Virus record (IMG/VR): IMGVR_UViG_3300023179_000185
Span: 1 to 44,436 of that record
Origin: a virus
Length of the DNA: 44,436 nucleotides
Direction: 5' to 3' (one strand)
The notes below the pieces were generated by a model. It did no database searches and was not told the origin of the DNA. It was given only the letters and a program-made list of their open reading frames with translations. The position numbers were made by a program, and so were the translations under genes. How positions within the stretch are numbered: position 1 is the first letter of the stretch; the number at the start of each line of letters is the position of its first letter. This document shows positions 1 through 38,002 of this stretch, piece by piece.

Positions 1-3000
1 GATCCTGAATTGGGTTTTGCATTAAGTTATGATGCTGTACAAGGGTTTATTGGTGACATAAAATTTGTAAATAATTTTGATACTGATACATTTGAATATG
101 TGGGTGACACTGAAGGAAAAGGAACACTAATTCCTACCAATGGTAAAATTAACATTGGCTTCATAAGAAAAAATACCGGATTAGGCGATAATGATCTTGT
201 AAAATTAACTGTATGGTCAACAGTTGGACATTATGAGCTCAAACCAATTACCGGCATGGCTTTTACTCCCACAGTAAACACAAGTACAACAAGAGCACTA
301 GCAGAAGAAATAAATCAAATTTATATAAATTATCTAGGCAGATATCCGACACAAAATGAATTAGATACGGCAGTAGCTAGTCAAATTTTTGGATACAGCG
401 TTCAAGGATCGTTTGCATTATCTACTTTTGAAACTACGATAAAAAATAGTCTTGAAGCTACTAATTATCAACCTTTCATTTATAGAATTGATCCTACCAA
501 ACAGTTACAACATATTTCGCACATTTATGATGGATATACAAGTTATTTTGATATAGACGTTCAACCTAGAAATGTTGGACCTAATCCTGAAGTTGAGCCA
601 AGTTTAAAACTTTTTATTAATAACAAGTTTGTAACACGTTCGCCTAATAGGAATCCTGTTTATGTGTTTCAAAAACTAGGAGTCAGAAATACTATTAAGA
701 TCGATCCTGCCTATCTACAGAAAGGAGACAGGGTAGATATACTGATCGATGGTCCGCAAACAACTATAGGTTACTATCAAATTCCTCAAAATTTGGAATT
801 TAACAGTCATAATGAAGATATTGTTGTATTAACGCATGGACAGGTTCGCAATCATTTAGAAAGAGTAGCTCAAAACATACAAGGACTACTAGGAGAGCCG
901 TTAGGTAGAAGCAACTTGTATCAATTTGACACCAATAATCGCGGCGGGACACTATTACAACATAGTGCTCCTGTTATGTACAGTGCTTTATTTTTAGTCG
1001 ACAATTCTGCTAATCTATTAAGTAGTTTAGATTATGCTCGAAGAGAATACACAAGATTCAAGAATAAATTTTTAGAAGCTGTTATTAATCGCGTTGACAT
1101 AAGCACAGAAAATATACCACAAATATTTGACAGTATTATATACAATTTAAACAAAGACAAAAATCCTAAGGACTTTGCTTTCTTCAATAGTAACATGATA
1201 GCCTATGGATTATCAGGAGATGAGGCTCGTTTTACTGTTTTTAATCCAGCAAATAAAGTATTTGATTTAAAATCAATTGAATTGACAAATTTTACTGCTC
1301 ATCTTGTTTATCTAAACAATTTGTTACTAATCAAAGATTTAGATTATACTTGGAATGGAACAAATGTAACTTTATCGAACAATATCACAATATCAATTGA
1401 TGATCAAATCGTTATTAAAGTTTACAGAGAATTTACAAATAGCTATATACCAGAAACACCTACAAAATTAGGACTTTATCCTAAATTTTTACCATCTAAG
1501 TTTATTGATAATACATTAGGAGACAGTGGTGTTAATGTTATTCAAGGGCATGATGGAAGCATAACTGTTGCTTTTAATGATTACAGAGATGATTTGTTAC
1601 TTGAATTAGAAAAAAGAATTTATAACAATCTGTCTGTTAATTATGATCCTACTAGATTTGATCTAACTGAGATTACTCCAGGAAGATATCGTCGTACTGA
1701 TTATACCCCAGAAGAATTTAATCGTGTAATTAACAGTGAGTTTCTCAAATGGGCAGGCTTTAATCATTTAGAGTATGCTACTAACAGTGATTATATGCCC
1801 AATAACGGGTTCACGTTTAATTATAACAGATGCCAAAACGAATTAGGACGCAATGTTCCTGGTCATTGGAGAGGTATTTACAAATTTTACTATGATACCG
1901 ATAGACCACACACACATCCTTGGGAAATACTCGGACACACTATCAAACCCACCTGGTGGGATACCTATTATTCCTGGACAGAACCAACAAAGCGCAGTGC
2001 ATTGATTATAGCTATTACTGAAGGCTATACTCAAAATCCAGCATTACCGGGGTCCCCGCTATCAAGTCCCTTACACTCGCGGTCTGGATTTAGTAGTATG
2101 ATTCCGGTAGATCCCAGTGGCAATCTTGTAGCTCCTATTAATTTGATGATACGTGCTAATGATTCTTCTACTTTTGGCAGAAATTTTACACTAGGGGATC
2201 ACGGACCAGCTGAAACAGCATGGCGTCGTAGCAGTGAATATCCTTTTGCTTTACAAAGAGCAATGGCTTTGTTAAAACCAGCTAGATATTTTGGACTCAA
2301 TATAGATATCACTCGATACAATAAAAAGTACATAGGCGATAATATTCAATTCGCATTGACCAAAAATTCTAAAAGGCCTAATCCTAGAGATATTGTACTA
2401 AATGGCGAAGAAATCAACGGACAAATACAAATAAGTGCAAGTTACATTAATTGGATTATTGGATATCTAATCAGTGAAGGCATAGAACCTATAACCTATC
2501 TACGCAATAGGTTAGATAAATTAACAGTTAATTTGACTCATAAATTAGGTGGTTTCAGTGATAAGAAATATCTTAATGTTTTTGCTGAACAGTTTGCTCC
2601 TGATAGCAAAGCCCAAAGCATTGTGGTTCCAAACGAAAATTACGAAGTTTATTTAAACAAAAGTGTTCCTGTAGAACGTGCAGTCTACAGTGCGGTAATA
2701 ATTGAAAAAACAAACAATGGGTATAGTGTCACCGGTTATGATAAAAGATATCCCTACTTCACTATTATCCCAAGCGAGCCAGCCGGATCTAGTTATACGA
2801 TAGAAATTTTAACTAAACGTGCAGTTGTTTTTACAGAATTTAGATCAGAGAAAATTGTTATACCATATGGTTACGAGTTTACCGACGATCAACAAATAGT
2901 CGACTTTTTAGTAAGCTACCAAAGATTCTTAATAGCGCAAGGATTTTTGTTTAACAACTATGATCCTATTTTAGAAGTTCCCAAGGATTGGGTTCTTAGT

Positions 3001-6000
3001 GCCAAAGAATTTTTAACTTGGAGTATGCAAGGATGGAAGTCTGGAAATATACTAGTATTGAGTCCTATAATTGATAAGATTGAGTTAGCCAGTAACGAAG
3101 GTTTCGTAGACGAAATTACCAATCAGTTGTATCAGAGTAGAGTGCTTGGTGCAAATTTTAATGCTATCAAAAAAACAGATTTAATGCTATTAAGAGATGA
3201 TAATATTACTACTATCAAAACAGTTAGCGGTCAAACTATAGCACTAGTCGATGTTAATATTATAGAATTTGAACATATTTTAATATTTGATAACATCACT
3301 GTATTCAATGACATGATTTATAATCCTGTTAACGGTAATAGACAGTTTAGAATGAAATTAAATGGTAGTAAAACTAATCAATGGACTGGTTCGCTTGTGC
3401 CTCCGGGATTTGTTTATACTACACCAGAATCTAAAGAATGGGTAGATAATAAACTGTACAATAAAGGCGATATAGTTTCTTATAAAAATAAGTTATATAC
3501 TGCCTCCCAACGTATTGATCCTAGTGAAATTTTTAATTTTAATTACTGGAAAGAATTAGATTCGGTCATTGAGTCCGGAATTACGCCTAATTTTAGTAAC
3601 ATTGTAGATAGATTAAAAGATATCTATAACGTTGATAACTTGCCATTAGATGAAGAATTTGTAAAATTTAGTGGTAGCCTAATAGGATATAGATCTAGGC
3701 CATATTTGACTGATTTAGGATTAAATGAAGTTTCCCAAATTAAATTTTATCAAGGCTTTATTAAAGAAAAAGGTACTTATAGTGCTATCGATAAGTTAGC
3801 TCGAGGTGATTTTGATAATATTAATAATGACATTGAAATCTACGAGGACTGGGGAGCTAGAATTGGTGTATTCGGGGGTATAGATTTAAATCCTGAAATT
3901 TCTCTTTCTATAAGTGAGTCGCTGCCTAATAGAAATCCGCTGGTTTTAGAATTCCTAGAATACGGCAGTCAACCGGCCAATACTGATATAAATCCAATTT
4001 ATCCAAACCAATTGGTAATGCGTCCTTATGACTATGTCAATAAATTATTTTTAAATCGCAATGAAAGTTCGTTATCTAGAGATTCTAGACAGGGATCAAG
4101 TGAAGATCAAGAAAATAAATTAAGATTAACTAAAATTGAATTATTTGGTGATGGAATCATGTGCGGTCAACAGCCCACTGATCTTACAGCATATTCTATT
4201 ACTGCTGTACAAAACTTAGCCTACGATGTTGAGGTTTACGGGCAAAGTAGTTACACTATTAGAACATTGAATCAGCTAAATCAAATGATTTTTGAGCCAG
4301 AGACTATCAACGGCAAATTAATTTTTGATATTGGATCGTTGACAGATATAGAAGATTTAGAATATGAAATAGCCGAATCTACCGGACAGGAAAATCAACT
4401 CAGCGTCAGTACATTGGTCAATACTCCTATTCAAACTCTTATTCCAGGACAACCGTTTTCAATAACAGTGTTTTCGGTGCTGCCAGCCGAGCAACTTACC
4501 ATTGAAATTGAAGCTCCTAATACTCTTGATGCATTACAACAAAATCCTACAGTCACAGAACTGGTATCAAAAGTCACTGCTGTAATTAATAATAAAGGTA
4601 AGGCAGGCATACAATTTAGTGTAACTGGTATAGAGACCACTGAAAAATTGTACTATTCAATTGAAGAATATAACGAAGACGATGATCAAGTATTGGTATC
4701 TACCTATTCGGAATATGGTTTAGCTTGCTTTCCAATGCCTGGGTCGGGAATAAACAATATTAATCGTAATATCAATAGGGTATCATCGCCCCCTGACATT
4801 TTATTGTATGAGTCATTGGAAAATTATGCTGCCACAAGTGTTTTAACACGAAGTGTTGGTGCCAGTATGTCCGAGGATCTTCTAAATGGCGATGGTGCCA
4901 ATGATGAATGGCCTGATCAAATTGAAGCAGATCTTGTATTAATAAATCATGGTTATAATGATGCAAGAAATGATGTTCCGATCGAAACATATAAAAATAA
5001 CTTACGTGAGATTAGAAACAGACTACCTCGCTCTAAAACCATTCTTTGGGTATTACCAACTAGACCTAATATGGATTTGAAAAATGAGAATGCTCTACCA
5101 GATCCTAGAGTTGATTGGAATAGAGACAATCGTTTGGATTTATATATTAATGCTATGCGAGAAGTCGCCATAGCTAACGGTGATTACATAGCAGACACTA
5201 CTAAGATACCAAATTGGAACCAATACTTTTTGATTGATCCTGTTTATCCAACTCAAGAAGGATATAGAGCTCTGATAGACTACGCCATAGCCCCGGCTGT
5301 AAAGAAAGTACTAAAAGATAAAATAAAGAGTACAGAAAAGAGTTACGAAAACGATGTTAAAAGTGCTGGGTATGTAATAGCTGAAGAAGTCGACGAATTG
5401 GTATTTGATATTGCCAATTGGACTGTAACTGCCGATGACCTTGTAAAATATACAAATGGATACAAAATTTGGTTTGCTAAAGATTTCAATGAAGATTGGC
5501 AAGTCTATAGATTATATAAGAATGACGTAGCTATTGTTGGTGCAACTGCCAATCTCGAAAACAAATTTAATTTAATATTTGAAAAAGATCATAGCTACTC
5601 TATAGGCGATCTCATTGTAGTAAGAAATTTTAATGTTTTGATCGATGGATTATACACAATACTTGGCGCAGATAGTAGAACAATTACAGTGCAGGGTACA
5701 GAACAGATAACAAATCTATTACAACAATATGATTTAGAAAGTATAGCTGACAATTTTGATTTTCAAAAACTAAGATTTGAAAATATTGAACAAAGAAATG
5801 CATTGATGCCTAAACATGGTTGGTTATCAACCGACTTTATCTATGTTGATGACAATGGGCTAGGACGTTGGGAAGTTTTTAAAGGTAAGTTAGATAGTTA
5901 TAGTAACATAGAAATATTTGGTGCCGATGTAATATATTCAGGAAAATATGATATCACTGCCACCGACTGTGGTGCAGTAGAAGTAGAAAGAGTAACTATT

Positions 6001-9000
6001 CTTAATACAGTTGGTATAGCAGATCAATTACATTTTAACATTAGTAGTATCGAAGACGCAGAGGATTTGTACTATACAATAGAAGAAGTTACCGACGAAG
6101 ATGTTGAAATTACTACTCAAATTGAAAAATTATTTTATCTATATTTAGATAGAGCCCCGGATAAAGGTACCTACGATTACTATGTAGACCTTGTGCAAAG
6201 AGGCAAAGCTAGTTTAACAGATATTGAACAAGCCATTAAAACCACTCCAGAAGCTATTTTCTTAAGTGCAAGAACAAGAGATTTTGGAAATGTTAGCACT
6301 GTAGTAGAAACCACAGAGCTTATCAGCACACCGATTTACAAATTTGAAACTATTAGAAAAGAAAGAAACTTGGTAGACATTGATAGTGTCAATAATGCCT
6401 ATGTATACAGTAACAAAGAAAAAAGAATACTTGCCAGATTAGATTTATTTGATCCAGCTAAGGGAAGATTATTAGGAACAGCCCAACAGGATTTAGACTA
6501 CACACTCAGTGTTGATCCTGCTGTATATAATAAATCATCGGATGTAAGTCAGAGTATAGGATTCAGTGAAACTTATTTCTGGGGACCGGAATATGTTGGT
6601 CATTACTGGTGGAACATAGACAATTGTAGATATACTTTTTATGAGCACAGCACTGTTGATAAAAGAGGACAAAATTGGGGCAAGCTATTCCCGGGATCTA
6701 CCATTGAAGTTTATGAATGGATAGAAAGTGATGTTATTCCTAGTGTTCATGTTACCCTAGGTAGGGATGGTACTCCATTATATCCCAATGATGTTGGCTA
6801 CAGTGAAAAAGTAGTTGTTGATCCTAGTAGCCTTACATTTAGTAGTCGTTACTATTTTTGGGTAAAGAATCGCAGTGCCAAATCCAATAAGGCTAAAGTA
6901 CACAGTGTAACAGCTTTATCGGATGTTATAGAAAATCCTATCAGTCAAAATATACCATTTATGGCAGCAGTAAAGGATAATGCTGTTGCTTTATTTAACG
7001 TGGGACAATTTCTTAATGGCACAGATACAATGTTGTATCTATCTAGCAAGCGACAGTTAACAGATAATATTGTTCATAGCGATTTCGCACTAATTCAAGA
7101 AGGAAACATAGAAAGTCCGTTACCGGAATATCTTGTTGAAAAGTTAATTGATAGTTTGTCTGGTATTGATCAATTTAATAATATGATACCAGACATGACT
7201 TTGCCTTTCCCTAGACGGTATGGAATAGAAAACTTTCCTAGACAAAGTGCTATTATTGATCAATATAAAGCCAAAGAAAATATAGTTAAGTATGTAAATT
7301 CTGTTTTAATTAGATATCCTTTAACCAGACTTGTAAACAATGGCCAAGGAAATTTATGGGCTCAACAACCAGTTAATACAAGTTGGTATGACGAAGAAGT
7401 TGGAATTTTTTCAGACTTAGAAGATCCAGTCCCAAGGAATAATTTAAGAATTTTGGTAAGAAGCGACGCACGTAATAATTTTTATTGGACTATCTATCAA
7501 GTTGTTAGGATTAAGACCAATCAACTTACATACAGATTTGAATATACTGATTTCGCTAAAGATTATCCACTTATTAGAGCTACTGTATCGGGTATAGACC
7601 CAGTCACTGGTGATAAGACCTATGATTATTATGGTTATACGTTAATACGTAGGCAAGGATTTAAAACAACTAATTATTGGAATTACACAAACTGGTATGC
7701 CAATGGTTTTACCAAAGACACCGTACCTAATTATGTAGTAGGAACTAACCAAGATATCTATAAGTTGAATATTCAAGAAAATGATATAGTCAGAGTTCTT
7801 AACGTATCAACAGAATTTGGTACCCTTGTTGACTACGATATAGATTTTGATCAATACACAAATGCGGAATTATATAAGTATGCCAGCAGCGAAGGACAGA
7901 TGTTAGGAACTCTTGTTGGTATAAATGGGGGAACTATTCAACTCAGTCCCGATCTTTATAAAAAATGGGGTTTCGACAGCGAAAGATTTGATACGTTTGG
8001 GTTTGATTTTGATGTTAACAAAGAATTCAGATACATTCTTAAAGGACTTCAAAATGAGATTTTTGTCAACGAATTAGAAATAGAATGGAATCGTACCTTA
8101 TACTATTTGATTGATCTCATATTAGCAGAACAGAAATATATTGATTGGTTCTTTAAATCTAGTTTTATTAGTATAAATCATAATGTAAATGGCTTAAAGC
8201 AAATTCCCGGTTACGTCAAAGATCGTCAACAAAGTTTCGCAGAATTTATTAACGAAGTAAAACCGTATAGAACAAAAATAAGAGAGTATAAACTTACTTA
8301 CAACGATATAGATGTTAACAGGTTAACTGTGACAGATTTTGATCTGCCAGCAATATGGGACAGTCGTGTTGAGCAATTTAGAAGCCCTAATAATGAATAT
8401 TCACACGACGGTAATTTACTTGCTAGATCGCAGTATCAAGATTGGGTACAAAATCATAAGTATCATATTGGAAATATTGATATAGTAAGTGGTGGGTATA
8501 ATTACAGTGGTATATTTTCAGGTGTAACTGCTCCGCCGTCAATAGTTATAACAAGAAATGACAGCAACATTGGAGCTAATGCTAGTGCACTTGCTCAGGT
8601 AACTGCAATTAGTCCTTTTTCAGTAACAGGTATATCTATTAGAGATATAGGAGGCAATTATACCGCTACACCTAGTCTACACATTATCAACAATGGTGCA
8701 GATCAATTTACAGATTACAGAATAAACAAATATGTAGTTGTGAGCCAAGGTTTATCGGACACCGTGGCCGGTACCACAGGCAATGTAGCCTGGGGTCTTT
8801 ATTCTGTGGATTCGTTAGGCAATCAAAAAGTATTATACAATACCACTGGTAGAAGTTATACACTGCATCGTATTCGCCGTAGCGATGGGCGTGTAGTGTT
8901 ATCTAAAGGATATGATGTTTATGGTACAACTGGTCAAGATAATGAGTTAGCCGACGACCTTAATCGTACTACATCTGACTATATCGTAGTTGTACATACA

Positions 9001-12000
9001 TTTGACGAACCAAAAACCAATCGAACTTCAACTAATTTATTACAAGCCATGTATCGTTGTGGCGCAAGCGGTGAAGTTTATGCTAGCATTGATTTTAAAT
9101 TTAGGTCAGCTTATATATTGGTAGGAATACCTGGGTCCGGGCAAGGTAACGGCATAGAAAATTATTCTGGGTTCGGTGATAACAGCACAAATGCCTATTG
9201 TAGATTAGAGTTTAATTTATACCAAAGCCAATTGATTCCTGTAGAAGCCTATCCTAGGATATATTCAATTGGGTCAAATGTTAGTTTCCCTATAAATCCA
9301 ACTATTAACTCTTTATATCAATTCAAAAATAAATCATGGGTATACAACGGAAATTCCTGGATAGTAGTTAAGAAACCAGTTTCTAGTCTACCTCAAGATC
9401 AAGGTCGCAAAAGTATTGTACTAACTCCCAGGTTAGAAAATACTTTGACGAGAAAAATAAAGTTAACTATTAAATTTGACAGAATAAGGTTTACCAGCAA
9501 TGTAACTAATTGGGCTCCAACTGTAAATTATCCTGTAGATTCGGTTGTTAGTTATTTTAACGCAGAAACACAAAAGTTACATGCATATAGATTCACTGGC
9601 AATATACCTGCTGGTTCAACTGACGATAAATTTCCATTTGGTCAGGTAGTAGAAATTACAGATCACAGTGAATTTGACAATGCCAATGATCGTATTCGTG
9701 CCTTCTATCAAAGTTCTCCGTACAACGAAAATATTCCAAACAACCTTTCAAGACTTGTATCTGGACTAGCTGCACTGCCTTCTGTAACCAGTGAGGATAC
9801 AGACCCAGATACTATCTTAATTGCAGACACATTTGGTTCAAATGCAGGAATCAGTGCAGGTAATATACGGGTAACCGGCGGTACATTTGTTTCTGACGTA
9901 TTAATACGTAGCCCAGAAGAACTGGTACCTGGTAGAGTATTTGAATCCCTAACAGTTGAGATACGGGAAGCTAGCACTATAGACGGATTCAGATTCTTTA
10001 TTGATATTTCAGGAAATGTGTCTGGTACAAGTTACACAACAGCTAGTACGACCACCTTAGCCCAACCAATTTATCTTGCTACCGGTAACATTACAGTTGT
10101 AGATGGAACCAAGCTATCGGCGCCAGCGCCGGTAGTAGTAGGAGGTGTAACAGTAGATGTTATTCCTGGTGTTATATTAGTCAACGGAGAGCGTATTGCT
10201 TATTATTCAAAAGCTGGAAATATACTAACACAGATTCGTAGAGGTTATAAGGGTACTAGTACTCCAGAAACACATCTTGCAGGGTCTAAAGTAGAAGATG
10301 TAAGTTCTGCTCGTACCAGTTCAACATACATGACTGATTATACTCGTCCGGTGCCACCTGCGCCTATAGGATTCTGGAGTATAACTCCAAGAGTAACTAC
10401 AGTAGTAGGTAGAAATCCATACATATTCGATTGGACTGCACCATCTACGGCTCCTGGTAATGTAACAGTAAGTTGGTATGCCGTTGATCCCGGAACCGTT
10501 AATCTATTTGCCAATACAGGAATAACTACAAGTGGAAATCTTGGGTATATTTACAATTTGCCAATTACAGCAACAAGTGGAAATATTAGGATCAATACTC
10601 AGCAAATTTTTGGTTATCCTCAAGAATTCCAGGTGATATTGACAGAAGGAGTTATTACTGCCAATGTTCTCGCTAGATCACTCACAGCCAATATCATAGC
10701 TAATACTACAGTTTCCACGATACCAGCTGTGCAATCATTTACCGCGGGATATTACTATGAAGGAATAAACGCTGATCGTTTTGCAGGTCTATGGTCTATA
10801 CCAAAAACACATACTATGGACAATATAACTGGTTTAGGTAGCGTAAATGTACATGGGCCAACGCCGGGTTTTTATGAGTTAAATTTAAATAATCTTCCTG
10901 TACACAACGAAAAGCAATTTAGTATGATCATGCATTTTGTTGACAGTCTTGATGGAGAAACTTCAAGGATCACATTAGGAAATGTGCTTTATGCAGAATT
11001 TACCAAAGTTTATAATGTTGCTGAATTAAATTATTCGGTTAATCTTTTTGCCAGTAACGTGTTTACTATAGCTGATTACAGTTATGCTCCTTGGGGTAAT
11101 AATAGTACAAAAAATGGTTTTGTAAGATTTGAAACCAGTTGGATAGCGAGTAATTCAAGCTCATTTAGTGCAAACATCTACTTAGGGCATAATCAACCAC
11201 AATCCGATGAGGCCATATATTTCTCGCACGTAAGTCTTAAACTACGTGGTGGCAATGTAGCTATAACACCCACTTTACCAATGCCTACTATTAATTTTGT
11301 AGTTAGCAATATTACATCAATAACTGGTTACACTCTAGTATCAAATACCTATACAAGTTCTAATACAATTACCATACCGACTGGTGTTACAATGGTGCAG
11401 ATAACTGGACGAGGACAGGGCGGAACAGCGGCCAATTTGAGTTGGGAAAATTCCTGGGTAACTGGAGATCCAGAATTTGGTCCTACATTTGCTACTGTTT
11501 CTCCAACGAGTATACATAGCATACCCAGTACTATCATTGAAAATCAAGCACAAAGCCAATATAATAGTTTACCAACTACTCGTGTCACTCAAGGCGCTAA
11601 CGTTCAGTTTACAAATAGAAGTTATATAGGTGGCAGATTAACTCAAACTACTTACGCAGCCAGAGTAAGGTTAAAGCCTGGAGTTGAAAAACTCAAGAGC
11701 GGTACAGGATGGGGATCATCCTATATAACACCACCTAATGAATATCGTACATACTCAGTGTTGTCAACTTTGTATGAAGAATACAGAGGTGGTTCATCGG
11801 GTGATCCAGCAGCTTTTGGTACAATAACGTTGCCGGGCGGTAAAAATGGCACTGTTGCACCACTTACAGTTACTACCGTGCCTGTGCTCCCTGGTTTGAC
11901 ATATCCTATTACTGTACCAACTGGTGGGATAGTTAATGTTCAATACTTACAACCAAATGTAATTACTATAATTGATCCAAATCCGTTGCGTGCTCGAGTA

Positions 12001-12825
12001 TTTGCTACTCCCGGAAGCTACAGCTGGACAGCACCAGCAGGTATAACTCGTATACATGTATTGTGTGTAGGTGGAGGTGGAGGTGGTAGTTATGCTGGTT
12101 ACGGAGATGCTGGTGGAGGTGGAGGTGGTACTGGATTCATAAACTTCTATACTGTAACACCTGGTTCTACCTATACAGTAGTTGTCGGTGCAGGAGGCAC
12201 ATCCAATGGCAATCAAATCGGTGGAAACGGCGGGGACAGTTACTTTGTAAGCAATATTACAGTAGCTGGTTTTGGTGGACGTGGCGGAGGCCAACCTTTT
12301 AGTTCAACGGGCGGAGCTTTTATAGGAACCGGAGGAGGACGAGGAGGACGAGGAGGTATCACAGGCAGTGGCGGTGGCGCAGGCGGCGGTGGCGCAGGTG
12401 GATATTCGGGCAGTGGTGGTAACGGAGGAAATTATCAAGAAGATGGAACATCGGGGTCCGGGGGCGGTGGCGGTGGAGGAGCTGGTCAAGATACACTCAC
12501 TGGATTTGGTGGCGGAGCTGGGGGAGGAATTAATTTTTATGGTGAAGGTACCAGTGGAGCCGGTGGTGAAACCGGAACATTAATTAGTCGTCATGGAGTA
12601 AGTGGCAGTGGAGCTACAACCAGTTTGAATACCTATGCAGGCGGTGCTAGTGGATCAAACTTCGGTGGTGGTGGGGGCAGTGGTAGCAGCAGTAGTATAG
12701 TTGGTGCCCAATTTGGTGGACGAGGCGGTGGTGGCCTAGTAGTAATATATTATGGAACTGCTGTAGCTGATTTTACGTCAAGTTTACCCTCTACTAACAT
12801 GAATATAATATACTTAGATAGTTAA
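1..12825 (+). CDS. Giant phage structural protein (5' end outside window), glycine-rich C-terminus
   Basis: The frame is open to base 1, so the N-terminus lies upstream; residue numbers here count from the TTG at base 10 (4271 aa visible). I see a DUF4214-like segment (~98-150), then a long region (~600-900) with PWEILGH..KP.WW and LGGFSDKKYLN patterns. I associate those with very large structural proteins of T4-like cyanophages. A CBM5/12-like Trp/Tyr segment sits near 1144-1185. A split SGNH-hydrolase-like domain covers ~1372-1770, with an Ig-like insert. A second DUF4214-like segment lies at ~2037-2090. The EVKPYRTKIREY segment falls near 2750, a GVILVNGERIAYY-type module near 3390, and an Ig-like domain shared with downstream genes at ~3455-3570. 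The C-terminal ~230 residues are a glycine-rich domain ending in a beta-like GGGLVVIYYG. Likely role: baseplate or fibre component contacting the host. Structural assignment is fairly sure, exact role is not. The stop is followed 17 bases later by the next gene. Confidence 0.85.
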   Translation, partial: DPELGFALSYDAVQGFIGDIKFVNNFDTDTFEYVGDTEGKGTLIPTNGKINIGFIRKNTGLGDNDLVKLTVWSTVGHYELKPITGMAFTPTVNTSTTRALAEEINQIYINYLGRYPTQNELDTAVASQIFGYSVQGSFALSTFETTIKNSLEATNYQPFIYRIDPTKQLQHISHIYDGYTSYFDIDVQPRNVGPNPEVEPSLKLFINNKFVTRSPNRNPVYVFQKLGVRNTIKIDPAYLQKGDRVDILIDGPQTTIGYYQIPQNLEFNSHNEDIVVLTHGQVRNHLERVAQNIQGLLGEPLGRSNLYQFDTNNRGGTLLQHSAPVMYSALFLVDNSANLLSSLDYARREYTRFKNKFLEAVINRVDISTENIPQIFDSIIYNLNKDKNPKDFAFFNSNMIAYGLSGDEARFTVFNPANKVFDLKSIELTNFTAHLVYLNNLLLIKDLDYTWNGTNVTLSNNITISIDDQIVIKVYREFTNSYIPETPTKLGLYPKFLPSKFIDNTLGDSGVNVIQGHDGSITVAFNDYRDDLLLELEKRIYNNLSVNYDPTRFDLTEITPGRYRRTDYTPEEFNRVINSEFLKWAGFNHLEYATNSDYMPNNGFTFNYNRCQNELGRNVPGHWRGIYKFYYDTDRPHTHPWEILGHTIKPTWWDTYYSWTEPTKRSALIIAITEGYTQNPALPGSPLSSPLHSRSGFSSMIPVDPSGNLVAPINLMIRANDSSTFGRNFTLGDHGPAETAWRRSSEYPFALQRAMALLKPARYFGLNIDITRYNKKYIGDNIQFALTKNSKRPNPRDIVLNGEEINGQIQISASYINWIIGYLISEGIEPITYLRNRLDKLTVNLTHKLGGFSDKKYLNVFAEQFAPDSKAQSIVVPNENYEVYLNKSVPVERAVYSAVIIEKTNNGYSVTGYDKRYPYFTIIPSEPAGSSYTIEILTKRAVVFTEFRSEKIVIPYGYEFTDDQQIVDFLVSYQRFLIAQGFLFNNYDPILEVPKDWVLSAKEFLTWSMQGWKSGNILVLSPIIDKIELASNEGFVDEITNQLYQSRVLGANFNAIKKTDLMLLRDDNITTIKTVSGQTIALVDVNIIEFEHILIFDNITVFNDMIYNPVNGNRQFRMKLNGSKTNQWTGSLVPPGFVYTTPESKEWVDNKLYNKGDIVSYKNKLYTASQRIDPSEIFNFNYWKELDSVIESGITPNFSNIVDRLKDIYNVDNLPLDEEFVKFSGSLIGYRSRPYLTDLGLNEVSQIKFYQGFIKEKGTYSAIDKLARGDFDNINNDIEIYEDWGARIGVFGGIDLNPEISLSISESLPNRNPLVLEFLEYGSQPANTDINPIYPNQLVMRPYDYVNKLFLNRNESSLSRDSRQGSSEDQENKLRLTKIELFGDGIMCGQQPTDLTAYSITAVQNLAYDVEVYGQSSYTIRTLNQLNQMIFEPETINGKLIFDIGSLTDIEDLEYEIAESTGQENQLSVSTLVNTPIQTLIPGQPFSITVFSVLPAEQLTIEIEAPNTLDALQQNPTVTELVSKVTAVINNKGKAGIQFSVTGIETTEKLYYSIEEYNEDDDQVLVSTYSEYGLACFPMPGSGINNINRNINRVSSPPDILLYESLENYAATSVLTRSVGASMSEDLLNGDGANDEWPDQIEADLVLINHGYNDARNDVPIETYKNNLREIRNRLPRSKTILWVLPTRPNMDLKNENALPDPRVDWNRDNRLDLYINAMREVAIANGDYIADTTKIPNWNQYFLIDPVYPTQEGYRALIDYAIAPAVKKVLKDKIKSTEKSYENDVKSAGYVIAEEVDELVFDIANWTVTADDLVKYTNGYKIWFAKDFNEDWQVYRLYKNDVAIVGATANLENKFNLIFEKDHSYSIGDLIVVRNFNVLIDGLYTILGADSRTITVQGTEQITNLLQQYDLESIADNFDFQKLRFENIEQRNALMPKHGWLSTDFIYVDDNGLGRWEVFKGKLDSYSNIEIFGADVIYSGKYDITATDCGAVEVERVTILNTVGIADQLHFNISSIEDAEDLYYTIEEVTDEDVEITTQIEKLFYLYLDRAPDKGTYDYYVDLVQRGKASLTDIEQAIKTTPEAIFLSARTRDFGNVSTVVETTELISTPIYKFETIRKERNLVDIDSVNNAYVYSNKEKRILARLDLFDPAKGRLLGTAQQDLDYTLSVDPAVYNKSSDVSQSIGFSETYFWGPEYVGHYWWNIDNCRYTFYEHSTVDKRGQNWGKLFPGSTIEVYEWIESDVIPSVHVTLGRDGTPLYPNDVGYSEKVVVDPSSLTFSSRYYFWVKNRSAKSNKAKVHSVTALSDVIENPISQNIPFMAAVKDNAVALFNVGQFLNGTDTMLYLSSKRQLTDNIVHSDFALIQEGNIESPLPEYLVEKLIDSLSGIDQFNNMIPDMTLPFPRRYGIENFPRQSAIIDQYKAKENIVKYVNSVLIRYPLTRLVNNGQGNLWAQQPVNTSWYDEEVGIFSDLEDPVPRNNLRILVRSDARNNFYWTIYQVVRIKTNQLTYRFEYTDFAKDYPLIRATVSGIDPVTGDKTYDYYGYTLIRRQGFKTTNYWNYTNWYANGFTKDTVPNYVVGTNQDIYKLNIQENDIVRVLNVSTEFGTLVDYDIDFDQYTNAELYKYASSEGQMLGTLVGINGGTIQLSPDLYKKWGFDSERFDTFGFDFDVNKEFRYILKGLQNEIFVNELEIEWNRTLYYLIDLILAEQKYIDWFFKSSFISINHNVNGLKQIPGYVKDRQQSFAEFINEVKPYRTKIREYKLTYNDIDVNRLTVTDFDLPAIWDSRVEQFRSPNNEYSHDGNLLARSQYQDWVQNHKYHIGNIDIVSGGYNYSGIFSGVTAPPSIVITRNDSNIGANASALAQVTAISPFSVTGISIRDIGGNYTATPSLHIINNGADQFTDYRINKYVVVSQGLSDTVAGTTGNVAWGLYSVDSLGNQKVLYNTTGRSYTLHRIRRSDGRVVLSKGYDVYGTTGQDNELADDLNRTTSDYIVVVHTFDEPKTNRTSTNLLQAMYRCGASGEVYASIDFKFRSAYILVGIPGSGQGNGIENYSGFGDNSTNAYCRLEFNLYQSQLIPVEAYPRIYSIGSNVSFPINPTINSLYQFKNKSWVYNGNSWIVVKKPVSSLPQDQGRKSIVLTPRLENTLTRKIKLTIKFDRIRFTSNVTNWAPTVNYPVDSVVSYFNAETQKLHAYRFTGNIPAGSTDDKFPFGQVVEITDHSEFDNANDRIRAFYQSSPYNENIPNNLSRLVSGLAALPSVTSEDTDPDTILIADTFGSNAGISAGNIRVTGGTFVSDVLIRSPEELVPGRVFESLTVEIREASTIDGFRFFIDISGNVSGTSYTTASTTTLAQPIYLATGNITVVDGTKLSAPAPVVVGGVTVDVIPGVILVNGERIAYYSKAGNILTQIRRGYKGTSTPETHLAGSKVEDVSSARTSSTYMTDYTRPVPPAPIGFWSITPRVTTVVGRNPYIFDWTAPSTAPGNVTVSWYAVDPGTVNLFANTGITTSGNLGYIYNLPITATSGNIRINTQQIFGYPQEFQVILTEGVITANVLARSLTANIIANTTVSTIPAVQSFTAGYYYEGINADRFAGLWSIPKTHTMDNITGLGSVNVHGPTPGFYELNLNNLPVHNEKQFSMIMHFVDSLDGETSRITLGNVLYAEFTKVYNVAELNYSVNLFASNVFTIADYSYAPWGNNSTKNGFVRFETSWIASNSSSFSANIYLGHNQPQSDEAIYFSHVSLKLRGGNVAITPTLPMPTINFVVSNITSITGYTLVSNTYTSSNTITIPTGVTMVQITGRGQGGTAANLSWENSWVTGDPEFGPTFATVSPTSIHSIPSTIIENQAQSQYNSLPTTRVTQGANVQFTNRSYIGGRLTQTTYAARVRLKPGVEKLKSGTGWGSSYITPPNEYRTYSVLSTLYEEYRGGSSGDPAAFGTITLPGGKNGTVAPLTVTTVPVLPGLTYPITVPTGGIVNVQYLQPNVITIIDPNPLRARVFATPGSYSWTAPAGITRIHVLCVGGGGGGSYAGYGDAGGGGGGTGFINFYTVTPGSTYTVVVGAGGTSNGNQIGGNGGDSYFVSNITVAGFGGRGGGQPFSSTGGAFIGTGGGRGGRGGITGSGGGAGGGGAGGYSGSGGNGGNYQEDGTSGSGGGGGGGAGQDTLTGFGGGAGGGINFYGEGTSGAGGETGTLISRHGVSGSGATTSLNTYAGGASGSNFGGGGGSGSSSSIVGAQFGGRGGGGLVVIYYGTAVADFTSSLPSTNMNIIYLDS

Positions 12826-12842
12826 AAACCAGGAATAAAATA

Positions 12843-12998
12843 ATGATAAATACTGACAATACCCAAAATTCTGAAATTCAGGATCACGATGATAATGTTC
12901 AACAGCACCCCGACGAGGATGGAGGATTTTATCTACATGATTTCTTAAAAATTTCGGATCCGGAAACAGGTGAAATAATTACGCAAGGTCGTGCTTAA
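12843..12998 (+). CDS. Small phage protein, 51 aa, acidic N-terminus
   Basis: ATG at 12843 is preceded by AGGA seven bases upstream, and the frame runs 51 codons to TAA at 12996-12998, one base before the ATG of the next gene. The first half is rich in Asp, Asn and Gln (disordered-looking). The second half reads FYLHDFLKISDPETGEI, which resembles the start of the next protein (HVKIYDPENNEV), as if both carry the same short beta-hairpin motif. Tight packing between two structural genes, the ribosome-binding site and this shared motif argue for a real gene. Function is unknown; it may be a minor virion protein or a remnant N-terminal copy of its neighbour. Confidence 0.65.
   Translation: MINTDNTQNSEIQDHDDNVQQHPDEDGGFYLHDFLKISDPETGEIITQGRA
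12845..12853 (+). promoter_or_regulatory. Candidate T4-type late promoter element
   Basis: GATAAATAC differs by one base from the T4 late -10 element TATAAATAC and is followed by T. It lies at the start of the small gene, so it would serve the downstream structural gene (ATG at 13000). AT-rich sequence makes chance matches common; this is only a candidate. Confidence 0.2.
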
Positions 12999-12999
12999 T

Positions 13000-13611
13000 A
13001 TGAAACATTATCTTCCTCTCAGTGTAACTGGACATGTTAAAATTTATGATCCGGAAAACAATGAAGTTTTTGTAGATCAACACAATGCTATACATTTTGA
13101 AAATATTAGTGAAGCATTAGCCAGTAGTCTAGCAGGAGTGCCGCGCAGTGGTATTCGTGAGATGCATTTTGGTAAAGGTGGGACTAGCATTAACACCACT
13201 GGTGTTGTCAACTACTTACCTCCTAATACGAATACACAAAATTCCGGTCTCTATAATTATACATTTCATAAATCTGTGGATGAACATGACACCGAGCAGA
13301 ATAGAGATAGAGGACGAAATCGTATGCAGGTAAGGCATATACCGGGCACTGTTTATAGTGATATACTTGTTACTTGTCTATTAGACTATGGGGATCCACA
13401 AGGACAATATGCATTTGATAATGCCGGTACATTAGATAGTCAGTTTATTTTTGATGAATTAGGTTTAAAGGCCTATGCACCGGACCGTGCCAATGGTAAA
13501 TTACTAACCCACGTTGTGTTTCATCCTGTACAAAAAAGTTTAAATAGGCTTATTCAAATTGATTATACTATTAGAATACAGAGCTTGACTAACCTCACAG
13601 GTTTGTATTAA
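13000..13611 (+). CDS. Conserved phage structural protein, 203 aa
   Basis: I chose ATG at 13000, one base after the previous stop, over the in-frame GTG at 12991, which would overlap that gene. The protein opens with HYLPLSVTGHVKIYDPENNE and continues VFVDQHNAIHFENIS, then a Gly-rich turn (FGKGGTSINTTG) and an Arg/Asp-rich stretch. The VFVD..NAIHFEN pattern recalls a conserved structural protein found beside giant fibre or baseplate genes in T4-like cyanophages (from memory). No signal peptide or membrane segment is seen. It lies between the giant structural protein and the S74 fibre, so a baseplate or fibre-attachment role is likely but unproven. Confidence 0.75.
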   Translation: MKHYLPLSVTGHVKIYDPENNEVFVDQHNAIHFENISEALASSLAGVPRSGIREMHFGKGGTSINTTGVVNYLPPNTNTQNSGLYNYTFHKSVDEHDTEQNRDRGRNRMQVRHIPGTVYSDILVTCLLDYGDPQGQYAFDNAGTLDSQFIFDELGLKAYAPDRANGKLLTHVVFHPVQKSLNRLIQIDYTIRIQSLTNLTGLY

Positions 13612-13623
13612 TAGGAGATCAAG

Positions 13624-14808
13624 ATGGCATATAATATCAATAAATCAAACGGACAACAATTAGTAGTGGTCGAGGAAGGTACAGCTGATTTAACAACAAC
13701 TAGTCTTACTTTAATTGGAAAAAACTTTTCAGGTTATGGGGAAAGTTTAAATGAAAATCTTGTACACTTATTGGAAAATTTTAGTCATACAGTGAGTCCG
13801 TCTAGTCCAATTAAAGGACAACTATGGTATGATAATAACACGAAAATATTGAAAATCTATGATGGTAAAAATTTTGTAGCAAGTGGAGCAGGTGTTGAAT
13901 TAGACAACTCATCAACTGCCATACATTATAATGTGTTTGTCAGTGATATCGAAGGTGCTCCACCGTTTAAGGTCGGTGGAGTTCGTGGTATGACAATGAC
14001 TCCGGCAACAGGCAACCATGCCATTGGGCGTAGTACGCCTGCAAGTGCTAAATTCGAAATTAACAACTCCAATACTGCTACTAAAATCTTTAACGCATAC
14101 CCACAATTTGACCAATTTGGTCAAGAAGTTGGTATTCATGTTCACGGCGACGATTACATTAATGGACGTAGTACAAGAATAGTAGTAGACAGTTACGGAT
14201 ATCGTGCCAACTATGATGGTATAGGAATCGCAAGCACTATAAATTTAAGACGAGCTAGAGGTAATAGCACTAACAGTGCTGCATTAAGAGAAAATGATGC
14301 CATTGGGTCATTGGCTGCACATGGCCATGATGGAATCGGATTCAGTCCGTATCAAGGATATCTTGTCTTTAGAGCAGATCAGGATTGGTCTAATAGTACA
14401 AGACCTACTAGATTAGAACTATGGTTAACTCCTAGAGATAGCTTAGTAAATAAAAAAGTTTTATCAGTGTACGGCAATGGTGATGTTAAAGCCGAAGGCG
14501 ATGTGATAGCGTTTACAAGCTCAGATGAAAATTTAAAACAAAACATACGACCAATCGACGGGGCGTTAGAAAAAATTAAACATTTGCAAGGAGTCGTTTT
14601 TAATTGGAACGATCTTGCTGTTGGTAAAGATACCGATAAAGAACAAGTTGGATTATTAGCTCAACAAGTATTAAAGGCTTGTCCACAAGCGGTTATTCGG
14701 CGTGAAAATGGTTTTTTAGCTGTAGATTATGAAAAATTAGTACCATTGTTAATTCAGTCGATTAAAGAATTAGGAGACCAAGTTGACCGATTAAGGATGG
14801 CTCAATGA
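13624..14808 (+). CDS. Tail fibre-type protein with C-terminal S74 intramolecular chaperone
   Basis: AGGAGA lies six bases before the ATG. The N-terminal ~90 residues (GKNFSGYGESLNENLVHLLENF, then PIKGQLWYD and ILKIYDGKNF) match a module I recall from T4-like cyanophage fibre and structural proteins. The middle is beta-rich with short repeats (AIGRSTPASAKFEI). The last ~100 residues are a Peptidase_S74 chaperone of the endosialidase/T5 L-shaped-fibre type. S300-D301 and K305 form the SDxxxK cleavage dyad, followed by KIKHLQGVVFNWN, EQVGLLAQQV and YEKLVPLLIQSIKEL, and a terminal helix. In this family the chaperone trimerises the fibre and then cuts itself off at the Ser. The product is therefore probably a trimeric fibre of ~299 residues. 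It overlaps the next gene by ATGA. Confidence 0.85.
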   Translation: MAYNINKSNGQQLVVVEEGTADLTTTSLTLIGKNFSGYGESLNENLVHLLENFSHTVSPSSPIKGQLWYDNNTKILKIYDGKNFVASGAGVELDNSSTAIHYNVFVSDIEGAPPFKVGGVRGMTMTPATGNHAIGRSTPASAKFEINNSNTATKIFNAYPQFDQFGQEVGIHVHGDDYINGRSTRIVVDSYGYRANYDGIGIASTINLRRARGNSTNSAALRENDAIGSLAAHGHDGIGFSPYQGYLVFRADQDWSNSTRPTRLELWLTPRDSLVNKKVLSVYGNGDVKAEGDVIAFTSSDENLKQNIRPIDGALEKIKHLQGVVFNWNDLAVGKDTDKEQVGLLAQQVLKACPQAVIRRENGFLAVDYEKLVPLLIQSIKELGDQVDRLRMAQ

Positions 14809-17800
14809 CATTACCACAGTGGACCCCGGCTCCTGGGTACACAAAATTAGGTTTGCGTCAAATCAGAGATGAATTTGGCTGCGTACCGATTATATTAACA
14901 CCTATTCTAACAGTTCCTAGACCACCGTTGTCGCCGGATTATGTTCCTCCTGTGCCTATAACTATGGCAGTCTTTAGTGTAAGTCCTTCTGCCCTTGACG
15001 AAACCTCTAATAGAATCGGAACCATTACCTACAGCATAATAGGAAGAGATAATCTTACAGTATATGCTCGAATATATCACATAAGTACAAGTGACGCGGA
15101 TTTTGTCGGAGCCATAAGTTGGACAATTAACACAGATTCTGGGACTTTAAATTTTACAGTAGCTACAGATAAAATAACAGAACTATCATCGGAAACTTTT
15201 CAGGTAGCTTTTACCTTAGAAAATAACAATTTCAACAGTTCTTTTTTTGTAAGTACAGTATTAACCATCTCGGATACTAGTAAATATACTGAGTGGAATC
15301 CTAGCTTTGTTCCTGTGGGTACTCAAGCGGGTACTTATGTAGTAACTACCGGAACACCAGTGACAGTAGGGATTATCAATGCTAAACCCGGTAGTACTTA
15401 TACTGGTACAATAACTTATGCAGGATCTGGTAATCCTTTTGCAAACAACCCGCAACCGATTACCACTCAAACTATTCTCGCCGATGGAACTTTGTATAAT
15501 GCTCCTGTGGTTTACGCAGCGGCGGGCACTTACACATATGATATCACATTTTCAAATTTTGCTCCAGATACTATGCTGAATGGTCCTACAAGAAGATATA
15601 TTTTAACTGTAAATCAAAGTGTTGGCAACTGGCGTGTATCACCTGTATCAACCACTGTAGTTGGTGGTAACACATTAAAATTTAATTGGTCAGTTGATCG
15701 ATCTGATCTTACTGAACTAAGTTGGTACATCGTAAATCCCGGGACCATGGTATCTTATACCGGAAATGGTATTCCTGATCGAGGAACACAGTTCAATATC
15801 AAAAGAGCTGTTAATACTTTGTCCGGCGACTTTACCATATCAACCGGTGTAGTCACCGCCAATAATATTTTTGAATTAAAATTATTTTCTGGTGCATTAT
15901 CTGACAGTACGCCGTTGGCAGCAAGTGGCAGTATAACCATAGTACCACTTCCTCCTATACCGTGTATAACTGTACTTGGAGATAAAACAGTTAGCTCGAA
16001 TAATGTTAGTATACTTGAATGGACCGTAGAAGGTAGTGTGGGTGAACAGGTTGAAATTACTCACATCGATCAACATGCGTCTAATCCTAATTATGTAATT
16101 TATTTTGATTATTATCCTGATGCTGGGGAACAGTTCAAACTTGACAATTGGGGGAAAGCAACAGCATCAGAATTTGTATTAGAATTTCATAAAAGAATAG
16201 GAAATAGGAGTGGTTATTTAACCTCCGGTCAATTAGAAGGTTTACGCAAACTTGGCACAAGAACAGTTACCTTAGGAGAAAAATTGTATTCAGATGATGG
16301 ACAAATAAAATGGAAGCCATCTACTGGAATAACTGATAAATTAATTCCAAGAAAAAGTCCATATATATTTTCGTTTGTTGGTAACAAAGCTCCTTGTACC
16401 AAGGTAGAAGGGATAAAAGTAGAATTAACTATTCTACACGGTTTTTCTTTAAAAGTAATCGGGGACACAGTTTATCCTTATGGTTTTCCTATTAAACCAA
16501 TTATTTCGGGTCCTCCTGACGCAAGGGTAGATTTTGTAGGCCCAACCACTGGTTTTACAATTCTTAATCCAGCTGGTAAATCTGATCCAGATTTAAGAAA
16601 TGGTCAGATCGTGGGAACAGGCACCCAAACTTGGAAATTTACATCAGACAAACCGTGCGCTAACAATCCTTTAGAGTGGTCTGCACAAATAATTGATTAT
16701 AAATTAGAAATAGCTGTTAAAGATGCAGGGTACAGTGGTGCAATCGCCGCCGGTACAGTTAAAATTTATACTGACTATCAAAATAAAATAATTGGTGGCA
16801 GATATGCAGAATCAAATTCGTCAACTGTTTTACCCAATGGTAGAACAAATCCCGTATTAGTACTACTAGGTAGTCCGGGTAGTACTGCTACTTGGGTGGC
16901 CGACGATAAAACCGAGAGTCCTGACTATACCAATACATTCAGCACAGCTACAAATGTGGAACGTGGGGAGATGCCTGTTCCAACATATTTACGTGAGTAT
17001 CAAACAAGATCGCCGGGAACAGTTGTATTTACAATTACAAGTCCTCAAAGTACCAATACTTTAACATTGACAGTACAAACTATAAAAATAGATGAACAAT
17101 TTTATTTTTCTACGCCAACAGGACCATCGACAGTAAGTCCACCTGAATTTAGCTCTTTTATAGCAGATATAATCACTCATCGAATTAGTGGAGGTTTGCC
17201 CAATACTTTTGCAAAATGGAATAGAAAACATATTCCATTGCCAGGCAAGACTGAAGAAACTACTCAACCTCAGGTCATACCAATTGATGCATCGGGTAAT
17301 TATACTATTCAATCTATATATCCGGCCCCCGGAACTTATAATCATACAATTACATTAGACGCCACCAGAAAAGTTTTAAGCCCTAGTATAATAGTAAGAG
17401 ATTGGGAATTTACTGTAACTTATATTAACCCAACTAATACTATTACTATTTCAAATCAAAGCTATCCGATGTACACGCAGAATCTACCAATGATGGTAAG
17501 AATAACTAGTAGGCCCGGAGATATAGTTACTCTTTTCACACCAACTTGGTTATCTGCTAGAGAAGTTTCTGGTTCACAGTATCAATATGTAATTAATGGA
17601 CCCGGAATGTGGCTCTGGGGTAACGGCGGTCAAGGATATCATAGAGGCTGGACAGAACAGTACAGTATCGAGGGTTACGATCCCAATGACCTTATAAAGC
17701 CTTATGCGTTGGGTCTACAACTTGATCCGATTACAGAATATCGTCGTCTTTACCCAGATATTGCAGCAGCTTTTCAGTCTACCGATCTGGAGAGGCATCG

Positions 17801-18782
17801 CCAGCATTATAGAGAATATGGGCATGTTGAGCACAGGTCATGGCCAGCCTATCAGCCCTTTCCAACAAGGACAATAACTATTCCCGATAACGGTGTTATT
17901 GAATATAACTTTAATGGAACCAGTACAAGTACAGAGATCTTTGTACAGTCTATACACTGGGATTACAGTCGTTCAGAGCCTAGTTATGTTACAGTGGGTG
18001 GACGCCGCTATCCGGATTCCGGTAGCTTCAGTCGCGGAATTACTGTTTTAAGTTTTGATCCAGCAACACTAACTTTAAAAAGCTCAATGACCTTTGATAG
18101 TTGGGGTAACCCCAATGGAGGACGAGACGCAAATATTGCTCACCTTTACTCAATACCGGTAGGTGATCTGGTAATCATGCTAACTTATGATGCTAGTTCC
18201 ATACAGATAGAAATGAGACCTCATATACAAGCTGTATTGGGGGGAACTTATAACGATTCGTGGTGGAGATCACGAACAGCTTCAATTGATATCGGTTACG
18301 CACATCAGCCAAGTAGACATATATACAGTGCCTCTTCAAGAGCATATGCACCATTAACTTATAAATTTGACGTATTTGCATCAACGGCGTCTCTTCCATA
18401 TCTAGGATTGTATAATACACGACCATTGGTATTGTCAGATATTAATTATCTAAAGTACGACGATGCACAATGGAATACTTATCTTGGAGTGTTTAATACA
18501 CCAACGGGTACAACCAGAGCGGCTCTAAATTATAAAACTGCTGTTATGAGTAATTTTTGGAACTATAGATTACAATGGTTATCTAATAAATTTTCTGTAA
18601 CTAAATTTACAAGCCATGGTATTTGGTGTCCTACACGAATGCCAGAGTCTGTTGTTAGACCGAGTTATATAGATAGTAGAAAATGTATCAAACTATTATG
18701 GGAAGATACTTGCCCAGCACCCGACAATAATAATGTGCCCGACGTGCCCGGATATGACACGGGCGGGGGCGGCCTCGACTAA
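14805..18782 (+). CDS. Modular adhesin-like virion protein with Calx-beta-like, Ig-like and ILEI/FAM3-like domains
   Basis: 1325 aa; translation probably couples to the fibre gene through the ATGA overlap, with AAGGATGG upstream. After a Pro-rich start, residues ~50-160 resemble a Calx-beta repeat. Residues ~274-382 are the W-x-[IV]-x-P Ig-like domain shared with four other proteins here. Ig-like repeats follow. One carries a helical insert at ~430-475 (VIYFDYYPDAGEQF); a second such motif (YRRLYPDIAAAF, then HYREYGHVEHR) lies at ~975-1018. Residues ~1062-1165 look like an ILEI/FAM3 domain: SRGITVLSFD, TFDSWG, IPVGDLVIMLTYD. The tail is Trp/Tyr-rich and ends in Asp, Pro and Gly. The protein is probably displayed on the virion and may bind host glycans or proteins. 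The domain calls are by eye; overall function is inferred. Confidence 0.8.
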   Translation: MTLPQWTPAPGYTKLGLRQIRDEFGCVPIILTPILTVPRPPLSPDYVPPVPITMAVFSVSPSALDETSNRIGTITYSIIGRDNLTVYARIYHISTSDADFVGAISWTINTDSGTLNFTVATDKITELSSETFQVAFTLENNNFNSSFFVSTVLTISDTSKYTEWNPSFVPVGTQAGTYVVTTGTPVTVGIINAKPGSTYTGTITYAGSGNPFANNPQPITTQTILADGTLYNAPVVYAAAGTYTYDITFSNFAPDTMLNGPTRRYILTVNQSVGNWRVSPVSTTVVGGNTLKFNWSVDRSDLTELSWYIVNPGTMVSYTGNGIPDRGTQFNIKRAVNTLSGDFTISTGVVTANNIFELKLFSGALSDSTPLAASGSITIVPLPPIPCITVLGDKTVSSNNVSILEWTVEGSVGEQVEITHIDQHASNPNYVIYFDYYPDAGEQFKLDNWGKATASEFVLEFHKRIGNRSGYLTSGQLEGLRKLGTRTVTLGEKLYSDDGQIKWKPSTGITDKLIPRKSPYIFSFVGNKAPCTKVEGIKVELTILHGFSLKVIGDTVYPYGFPIKPIISGPPDARVDFVGPTTGFTILNPAGKSDPDLRNGQIVGTGTQTWKFTSDKPCANNPLEWSAQIIDYKLEIAVKDAGYSGAIAAGTVKIYTDYQNKIIGGRYAESNSSTVLPNGRTNPVLVLLGSPGSTATWVADDKTESPDYTNTFSTATNVERGEMPVPTYLREYQTRSPGTVVFTITSPQSTNTLTLTVQTIKIDEQFYFSTPTGPSTVSPPEFSSFIADIITHRISGGLPNTFAKWNRKHIPLPGKTEETTQPQVIPIDASGNYTIQSIYPAPGTYNHTITLDATRKVLSPSIIVRDWEFTVTYINPTNTITISNQSYPMYTQNLPMMVRITSRPGDIVTLFTPTWLSAREVSGSQYQYVINGPGMWLWGNGGQGYHRGWTEQYSIEGYDPNDLIKPYALGLQLDPITEYRRLYPDIAAAFQSTDLERHRQHYREYGHVEHRSWPAYQPFPTRTITIPDNGVIEYNFNGTSTSTEIFVQSIHWDYSRSEPSYVTVGGRRYPDSGSFSRGITVLSFDPATLTLKSSMTFDSWGNPNGGRDANIAHLYSIPVGDLVIMLTYDASSIQIEMRPHIQAVLGGTYNDSWWRSRTASIDIGYAHQPSRHIYSASSRAYAPLTYKFDVFASTASLPYLGLYNTRPLVLSDINYLKYDDAQWNTYLGVFNTPTGTTRAALNYKTAVMSNFWNYRLQWLSNKFSVTKFTSHGIWCPTRMPESVVRPSYIDSRKCIKLLWEDTCPAPDNNNVPDVPGYDTGGGGLD

Positions 18783-37662: not shown

Positions 37663-38002
37663 GGTTATTAGACCATTTTAGTAAAAAATAAGTAAGATCC
37701 GATTCATACAATCGTGCCGCAATCTTTACCGTATATCCATAATAAGCGTGATCTATAGCTATAGTCCAAACAGGTGTTTCTACAGCAGTAGCCATGATCC
37801 ACTGACCTTTTTCACTTTGTTCAAATTCCCATAAACCCTGCCCGGCATAGATTTCAGGGTCTTCAACATCGCCTAATCTAAACGAATGTACTACTTGATG
37901 CCTAATGGCTTCCTGACGAGAGTTCTTGGGCAAGGGGGAAGATTCCGGCAATAACTGTCGCACAGGCTCTTGCCACTTCTGTATGTTCTTGTTGAGTGCC
38001 AT
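37634..38002 (-). CDS. Conserved T4-like phage protein of unknown function, 122 aa
   Basis: Core motifs VVHSFRLGDVEDPEIYAGQ, WEFEQSEKGQWIM and YYGYTVKIAARL match a small conserved protein I recall from T4-like cyanophages, usually carrying HTFRMGDVEDPE and a GKWVM motif. The ATG at 38002 lies inside the 3' part of thyX, giving a 101-base out-of-frame overlap. No later in-frame ATG or GTG precedes the conserved core, and AAGG lies just upstream, so I keep it. The C-terminal residues after LLKWSNN run into the convergent structural gene. Function unknown. Confidence 0.75.
   Translation of the reverse strand: MALNKNIQKWQEPVRQLLPESSPLPKNSRQEAIRHQVVHSFRLGDVEDPEIYAGQGLWEFEQSEKGQWIMATAVETPVWTIAIDHAYYGYTVKIAARLYESDLTYFLLKWSNNLNLAHQQLY

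Follow-up and report, generated by a model that had tools for sequence, protein, structure and literature searches.

The hemagglutinin of influenza A carries an inactive, vestigial esterase domain, which provides a precedent for the loss of esterase function. In the viral hemagglutinin-esterases (HE/HEF), which are virion adhesion proteins, a receptor-binding domain is inserted within the SGNH sequence, and the SGNH domain of Neisseria Ape1 has a carbohydrate-binding domain inserted inside it (PMC9487903). On the side of bacteriophages, SGNH tail proteins have been described as active deacetylases, for example in Klebsiella prophage tail fibres (PMC13123978). There are known examples of each feature taken alone: SGNH domains carried on phage tails, others that house an inserted domain, and viral esterases that have become vestigial. 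In the open-licence literature, we found no description of a grafted baseplate SGNH domain that has been repeatedly disarmed within one phage group, which is the situation reported here for a virus sequence of 44,436 nucleotides (IMG/VR record IMGVR_UViG_3300023179_000185, positions 1 to 44,436, hereafter the window) and its relatives.

The first 12.8 kb of the window consist of one single open frame (1-12825, + strand, as are all features of this protein given below), which encodes at least 4274 aa and is truncated by the 5' end of the window. As the frame is open at this end, the true giant protein is longer than 4274 aa, and the frames of its nearest relatives measure 5040-5280 aa. The protein matches phrog_10938 (virion structural protein, E 7.5e-157) and aligns with the ~3300-4500 aa virion structural protein of PA5oct, 121Q, XaC1, CBB, GAP32, Atu_ph07, Phosso, SCTP-2 and other T4-like jumbo phages, the annotation of the PA5oct homologue citing mass-spectrometry evidence. 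In relatives of the window, a gene for a gp6-like baseplate wedge subunit is located directly upstream of the giant-protein gene, while downstream the gene order is the same in the window and in the relative L018, with a phrog_11259 gene (12991-13611, +) followed by a tail-fibre or baseplate-pin-like gene (13624-14808, +). Judging from these conserved neighbours and from the mass-spectrometry-annotated PA5oct homologue, the giant protein is a baseplate component. Its conserved backbone region (residues 480-1318; 1438-3954) was the basis for finding relatives and building trees; a profile of this region matched no solved structure significantly. The tail region of the window holds three further very large open reading frames, at 14805-18782 (ILEI-like domain), 21528-27875 (LCCL and glycine-rich domains) and 32017-37662 (collagen-like stretch), with no family match over much of their length. 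Beyond them, a 229-aa thymidylate synthase-like frame (37902-38591, - strand) spans just positions 371-578 of an 866-position profile and may be a shortened version or part of a split gene.

Within the giant protein, residues 1375-1775 (4123-5325) are assigned to an SGNH-fold pseudo-esterase domain by Pfam, AlphaFold and Foldseek. The Pfam model PF13472 (Lipase_GDSL_2) is matched with 43.4 bits for a cut-off of 32.9, the best stretch being the portion that follows a large insert. In AlphaFold2 models built with 7 and then with 19 family members, pLDDT values are mostly 85-98 in the SGNH core and below 50 in most of the insert. Searched against the PDB with Foldseek, the domain has SGNH esterases as best matches (E down to 3e-7), including 1yzf (TM 0.70 by target), Neisseria Ape1 and phage tail fibres. 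The SGNH family profile also matches 1yzf by sequence (1.5e-8), the GAND of 1yzf pairing with the family GxND block and its DGLH with the DxxH block. A direct protein search of IMG/VR and phage records with the unmodified 437-residue domain gave no matches, probably because the insert interrupts local alignment, and a query with the insert excised gave weak matches to Vibrio and Shewanella phage SGNH proteins. A PDB sequence search with the single window protein found nothing significant, no NCBIfam or PHROGs model matched the SGNH domain, and no relative was encoded on the bacterial genome contigs searched. A sequence-only reading of the window had proposed that the SGNH fold is kept, to be checked by structure prediction, and such a fold is what Pfam, the confident AlphaFold core and the esterases found by Foldseek all indicate. 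That the motifs resemble those of SGNH proteins by mere chance has a negligible probability, since beyond their non-canonical state it has nothing in its favour and it is refuted by these same three lines of evidence and by relatives in which GDS and DxxH are intact. The domain thus has a genuine SGNH fold and is classed as an SGNH-fold pseudoenzyme, predicted to be inactive, rather than as a hydrolase.

The catalytic motifs account for this classification. Block I reads FGDGIMCG (residues 1382-1389; 4144-4167), with Gly1385 (GGA, 4153-4155) replacing the nucleophile Ser, which is encoded by AGY in grafted Ser-bearing relatives. In the block II region TRSVGASMSEDLLN (4846-4887), the oxyanion-Gly position 1621 is Ala in the window and G/N/S/D/V elsewhere, with a register uncertain by one residue. 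Block III reads NHGYND (residues 1649-1654; 4945-4962) and has its oxyanion Asn, Asn1653 (4957-4959), intact, G1651-Y-N1653-D1654 being aligned to the GAND of 1yzf. In block V, DPVYPTQEGY (residues 1746-1755; 5236-5265), Asp1746 is retained, Gly1747 is replaced by Pro and the catalytic His by Tyr1749 (TAT, 5245-5247), nearly all His-bearing relatives having CAT at this position. Minimal codon changes would suffice for these replacements, namely AGY to GGY or AAT for Ser and CAT to TAT for His. The three motifs FGDGIMCG, NHGYND and DPVYPTQEGY had been singled out in the sequence-only reading, together with the exchanges of the nucleophile Ser for Gly and of the catalytic His for Tyr; all are indeed found in the frame 1-12825, and the residues were correctly named under a numbering 3 too low, consistent with counting from a TTG at base 10.

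Block I is separated from the remaining domain by a beta-rich insert (residues 1390-1575; 4168-4725), bracketed by Cys1388 (4162-4164) and Cys1576 (4726-4728). An intervening stretch had been announced by the earlier reading as about 150 Ig-like residues; the stretch does exist, its length is ~187 (Cys1388 to Cys1576), and an Ig-like nature is not established, the insert having no significant Pfam match and an all-beta prediction at low confidence. The two cysteines co-occur in grafted copies, including those with just 12-17 residues between them, with the second Cys one column off in a few rows of the alignment. The sole copy devoid of the first Cys, L123, also misses the second, and both are absent from the distant Vibrio phage domains. 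From this co-occurrence, it is a reasonable inference that a Cys1388-Cys1576 disulphide clips the base of the insertion site. The insertion of the beta domain was considered as the cause of the catalytic loss and rejected, as Ser/His-intact relatives carry an equivalent insert of 174-188 residues and the Ser/His-less relative L111/L112 has none. The insert is partly made of repeats of a unit that recurs in other places of the protein, and its last unit has a homologue outside the graft, in residues 1985-2039 of the same protein (5953-6117, E 1e-8). A weaker homologue of this last repeat lies at 25080-25163 in the 2115-aa tail-region frame (E 9.5e-5). In L127, where Ser is Gly, there is no block I insert, and an 88-residue beta-rich unit is located just before the block V DGIHP. 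Similar units have thus been inserted into this one domain at two separate sites, and they seem to be mobile modules.

Regarding its origin, the SGNH domain entered the giant baseplate protein once, at an interdomain linker, in an ancestor of this phage group. On the left, the junction linker (residues 1319-1374; 3955-4122) consists of a conserved FLNRNE followed by a variable tail and, on the right, ENDVKSAGYV (5347-5376) marks the point at which graft-free relatives return to backbone sequence. The distance between the backbone end and the SAGYV motif is mostly 44-50 residues in relatives without the SGNH domain, and with the domain reaches 265-270 residues (no insert) or 316-470 residues (with the insert). 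A tree built from 110 backbone sequences unites all grafted rows in one clade (support 100), with a single change in presence of the domain. Among the named jumbo phages examined, none has an SGNH domain in the linker, which holds other or no content; an apparent long slot in L055 proved to be a false regex match. In L005 and L006 (Phosso and Atu_ph07), about 440 aa with no SGNH match occupy the corresponding linker, which may hence be a general graft site. In three relatives (L116-L118), the giant protein gives no SGNH match, but another protein of 1369-1636 aa, encoded tens of kilobases from the giant-protein gene, has an SGNH domain close to its N-terminus that retains Ser, Asn and His; in L117, this protein also contains ILEI and laminin-G-like domains. 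These separate proteins suggest, and do not prove, where the graft came from.

Since its insertion, the domain has been disarmed more than once. Ser and His are both kept in 12 of the 25 grafted copies, so that the Ser/His-intact versions sought by aligning homologues do exist, an intact dyad not being proof of activity; several Ser/His-intact relatives are devoid of the block III Asn (1653), and not all of them are thus certainly active. The remaining 13 copies have no Ser (12 Gly, 1 Asn) and 8 of these also have no His (Tyr, Phe or Ile), while no copy has lost His alone (0/25). Mapped on the backbone tree, the presence of Ser requires at least 5 changes and that of His at least 2, counts that assume no domain recombination between phages and the presence of Ser and His in the ancestor; because all outgroups have both residues, these changes are read as losses. 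The His losses are confined to Ser-less lineages, the AU test (p 4.7e-7) rejects a topology that unites all Ser-less copies in one clade, and the tree of the domain itself, built with the catalytic columns removed, gives 6 Ser changes and 3 His changes. At least 5 changes are likewise counted at the canonical Asn1653. Altogether, Ser, Asn and His occur jointly in 3/25 grafted copies versus 8/8 non-grafted relatives (Fisher p 1.2e-5, relatedness ignored).

The loss appears selective. Among the 40 residues that are invariant in the 15 Ser/His-intact copies, the window keeps 37 and departs from them by Ser1385Gly, Gly1747Pro and His1749Tyr; random hits on 3 of 40 residues would include both Ser and His with a probability of 38/9880, or ~0.004. 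In L127, Ser is the only one of the 40 to have changed. The reading frame is open across the domain in every copy and, in the disarmed trio L095/L097/L098, dN/dS (NG86) amounts to 0.07-0.15 in the core and 0.08-0.19 in the insert, which implies that the disarmed domain is still under purifying selection; the window-L096 comparison was not relied on, synonymous sites being saturated (dS about 2). The repeated loss of catalytic residues might evoke a decaying relic devoid of function, which is however improbable given the open frames, dN/dS values far under 1 in inactivated copies, the 37/40 invariant residues kept and the long persistence of lineages past the loss. About equally improbable is continued catalysis by a non-canonical mechanism, in which Ser and His would be replaced by another residue or by an activated water. 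Asp1746 and Asn1653 are kept and Tyr1749 could in principle be conceived as an acid/base, but no nucleophile- or base-like residue has been newly fixed in the clade of the window, whose members have Tyr, Phe or Ile at position 1749 and Gly or Asn at position 1385, a variation that no common mechanism would tolerate. A replacement nucleophile was also looked for and discarded, including the invariant Cys1388, which is equally present in Ser/His-intact copies. With a confident core, 37/40 invariants and no substitute Ser/His pair found, the proposal that catalysis is lost and the fold kept is supported for the window.

As to function, the ancestral SGNH domain may have removed acetyl or other ester groups from a host surface polysaccharide, a deacetylase role inferred from published phage SGNH proteins (PMC13123978). 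In the lineage of the window, the nucleophile (Ser to Gly1385) and the catalytic base (His to Tyr1749) were then lost, with the fold and nearly all of the other conserved residues retained. Loss of the nucleophile would convert a receptor-altering enzyme into a pocket that holds an identical or related ligand and leaves it uncut, and during adsorption the disarmed domain would anchor the baseplate in the manner of a lectin, with the beta-rich insert and its probable disulphide probably adding or shaping a binding surface. A putative part in host recognition through binding of glycans or acetyl esters, as suggested by the sequence-only reading, agrees with the position in the baseplate and with the published phage SGNH deacetylases. 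The competing explanation of a structural spacer or assembly module, in which activity is unneeded and the fold is retained for packing or length, is rather unlikely and yet deserves consideration: the domain sits in an interdomain linker, many of its conserved residues are probably fold residues, and the block III Asn has been repeatedly lost in grafted copies, as expected if the chemistry were overall unselected. However, the linker works without an SGNH domain in all relatives outside the clade, and Asp1746 and motif residues by the active site (Asn1649, His1650, Asp1654 and Tyr1755) are nearly invariant after the loss of Ser and His. The putative binding role, that is, an esterase turned lectin, is the best explanation, to which we give a probability of roughly 0.55. 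More tentatively, and with the odds rather against it, one may propose that the switch from enzyme to lectin is recurrent, requires as little as one transition in the nucleophile codon (AGY to GGY or AAT) and has been selected at least 5 times in one phage group. Were this true, bacterial viruses would offer a parallel to the path from esterase to adhesin that has been inferred for influenza hemagglutinin.

How does this locus compare with known systems? The giant virion protein of PA5oct, 121Q and Atu_ph07 (phrog_10938) is homologous to the backbone that flanks the graft left and right, but has no SGNH domain in the linker. The Neisseria peptidoglycan O-acetylesterase Ape1 (PDB 4k3u) is the top Foldseek match of the second model and, as in the window, its SGNH domain is interrupted; Ape1 is, in contrast, an active bacterial enzyme, and the overlay of its insert with that of the window is unreliable (TM about 0.3-0.4). 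The architecture also recalls HE/HEF, the SGNH domain of the window being interrupted by ~187 residues that are beta-rich by low-confidence prediction; HE/HEF are nevertheless proteins of animal viruses, compared here on architecture rather than on sequence, and in the window the esterase is itself disarmed. The phage SGNH receptor-binding proteins (G7C gp63.1, the Klebsiella prophage fibres, 9lna, 9d81 and 9d84) likewise have an SGNH core in a phage tail protein, and Foldseek pairs the domain of the window with the solved phage fibres 9lna, 9d81 and 9d84. Those studied are active esterases in fibres or spikes, whereas the domain of the window lies inside a giant baseplate protein and has neither Ser nor His. 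Active deacetylase is the usual annotation of phage SGNH domains, and this family warns against inferring an esterase activity from a Pfam GDSL match alone. Moreover, with disarmed and intact copies occupying one slot, it offers natural pairs for testing the conversion of an enzyme into a binding domain by phages.
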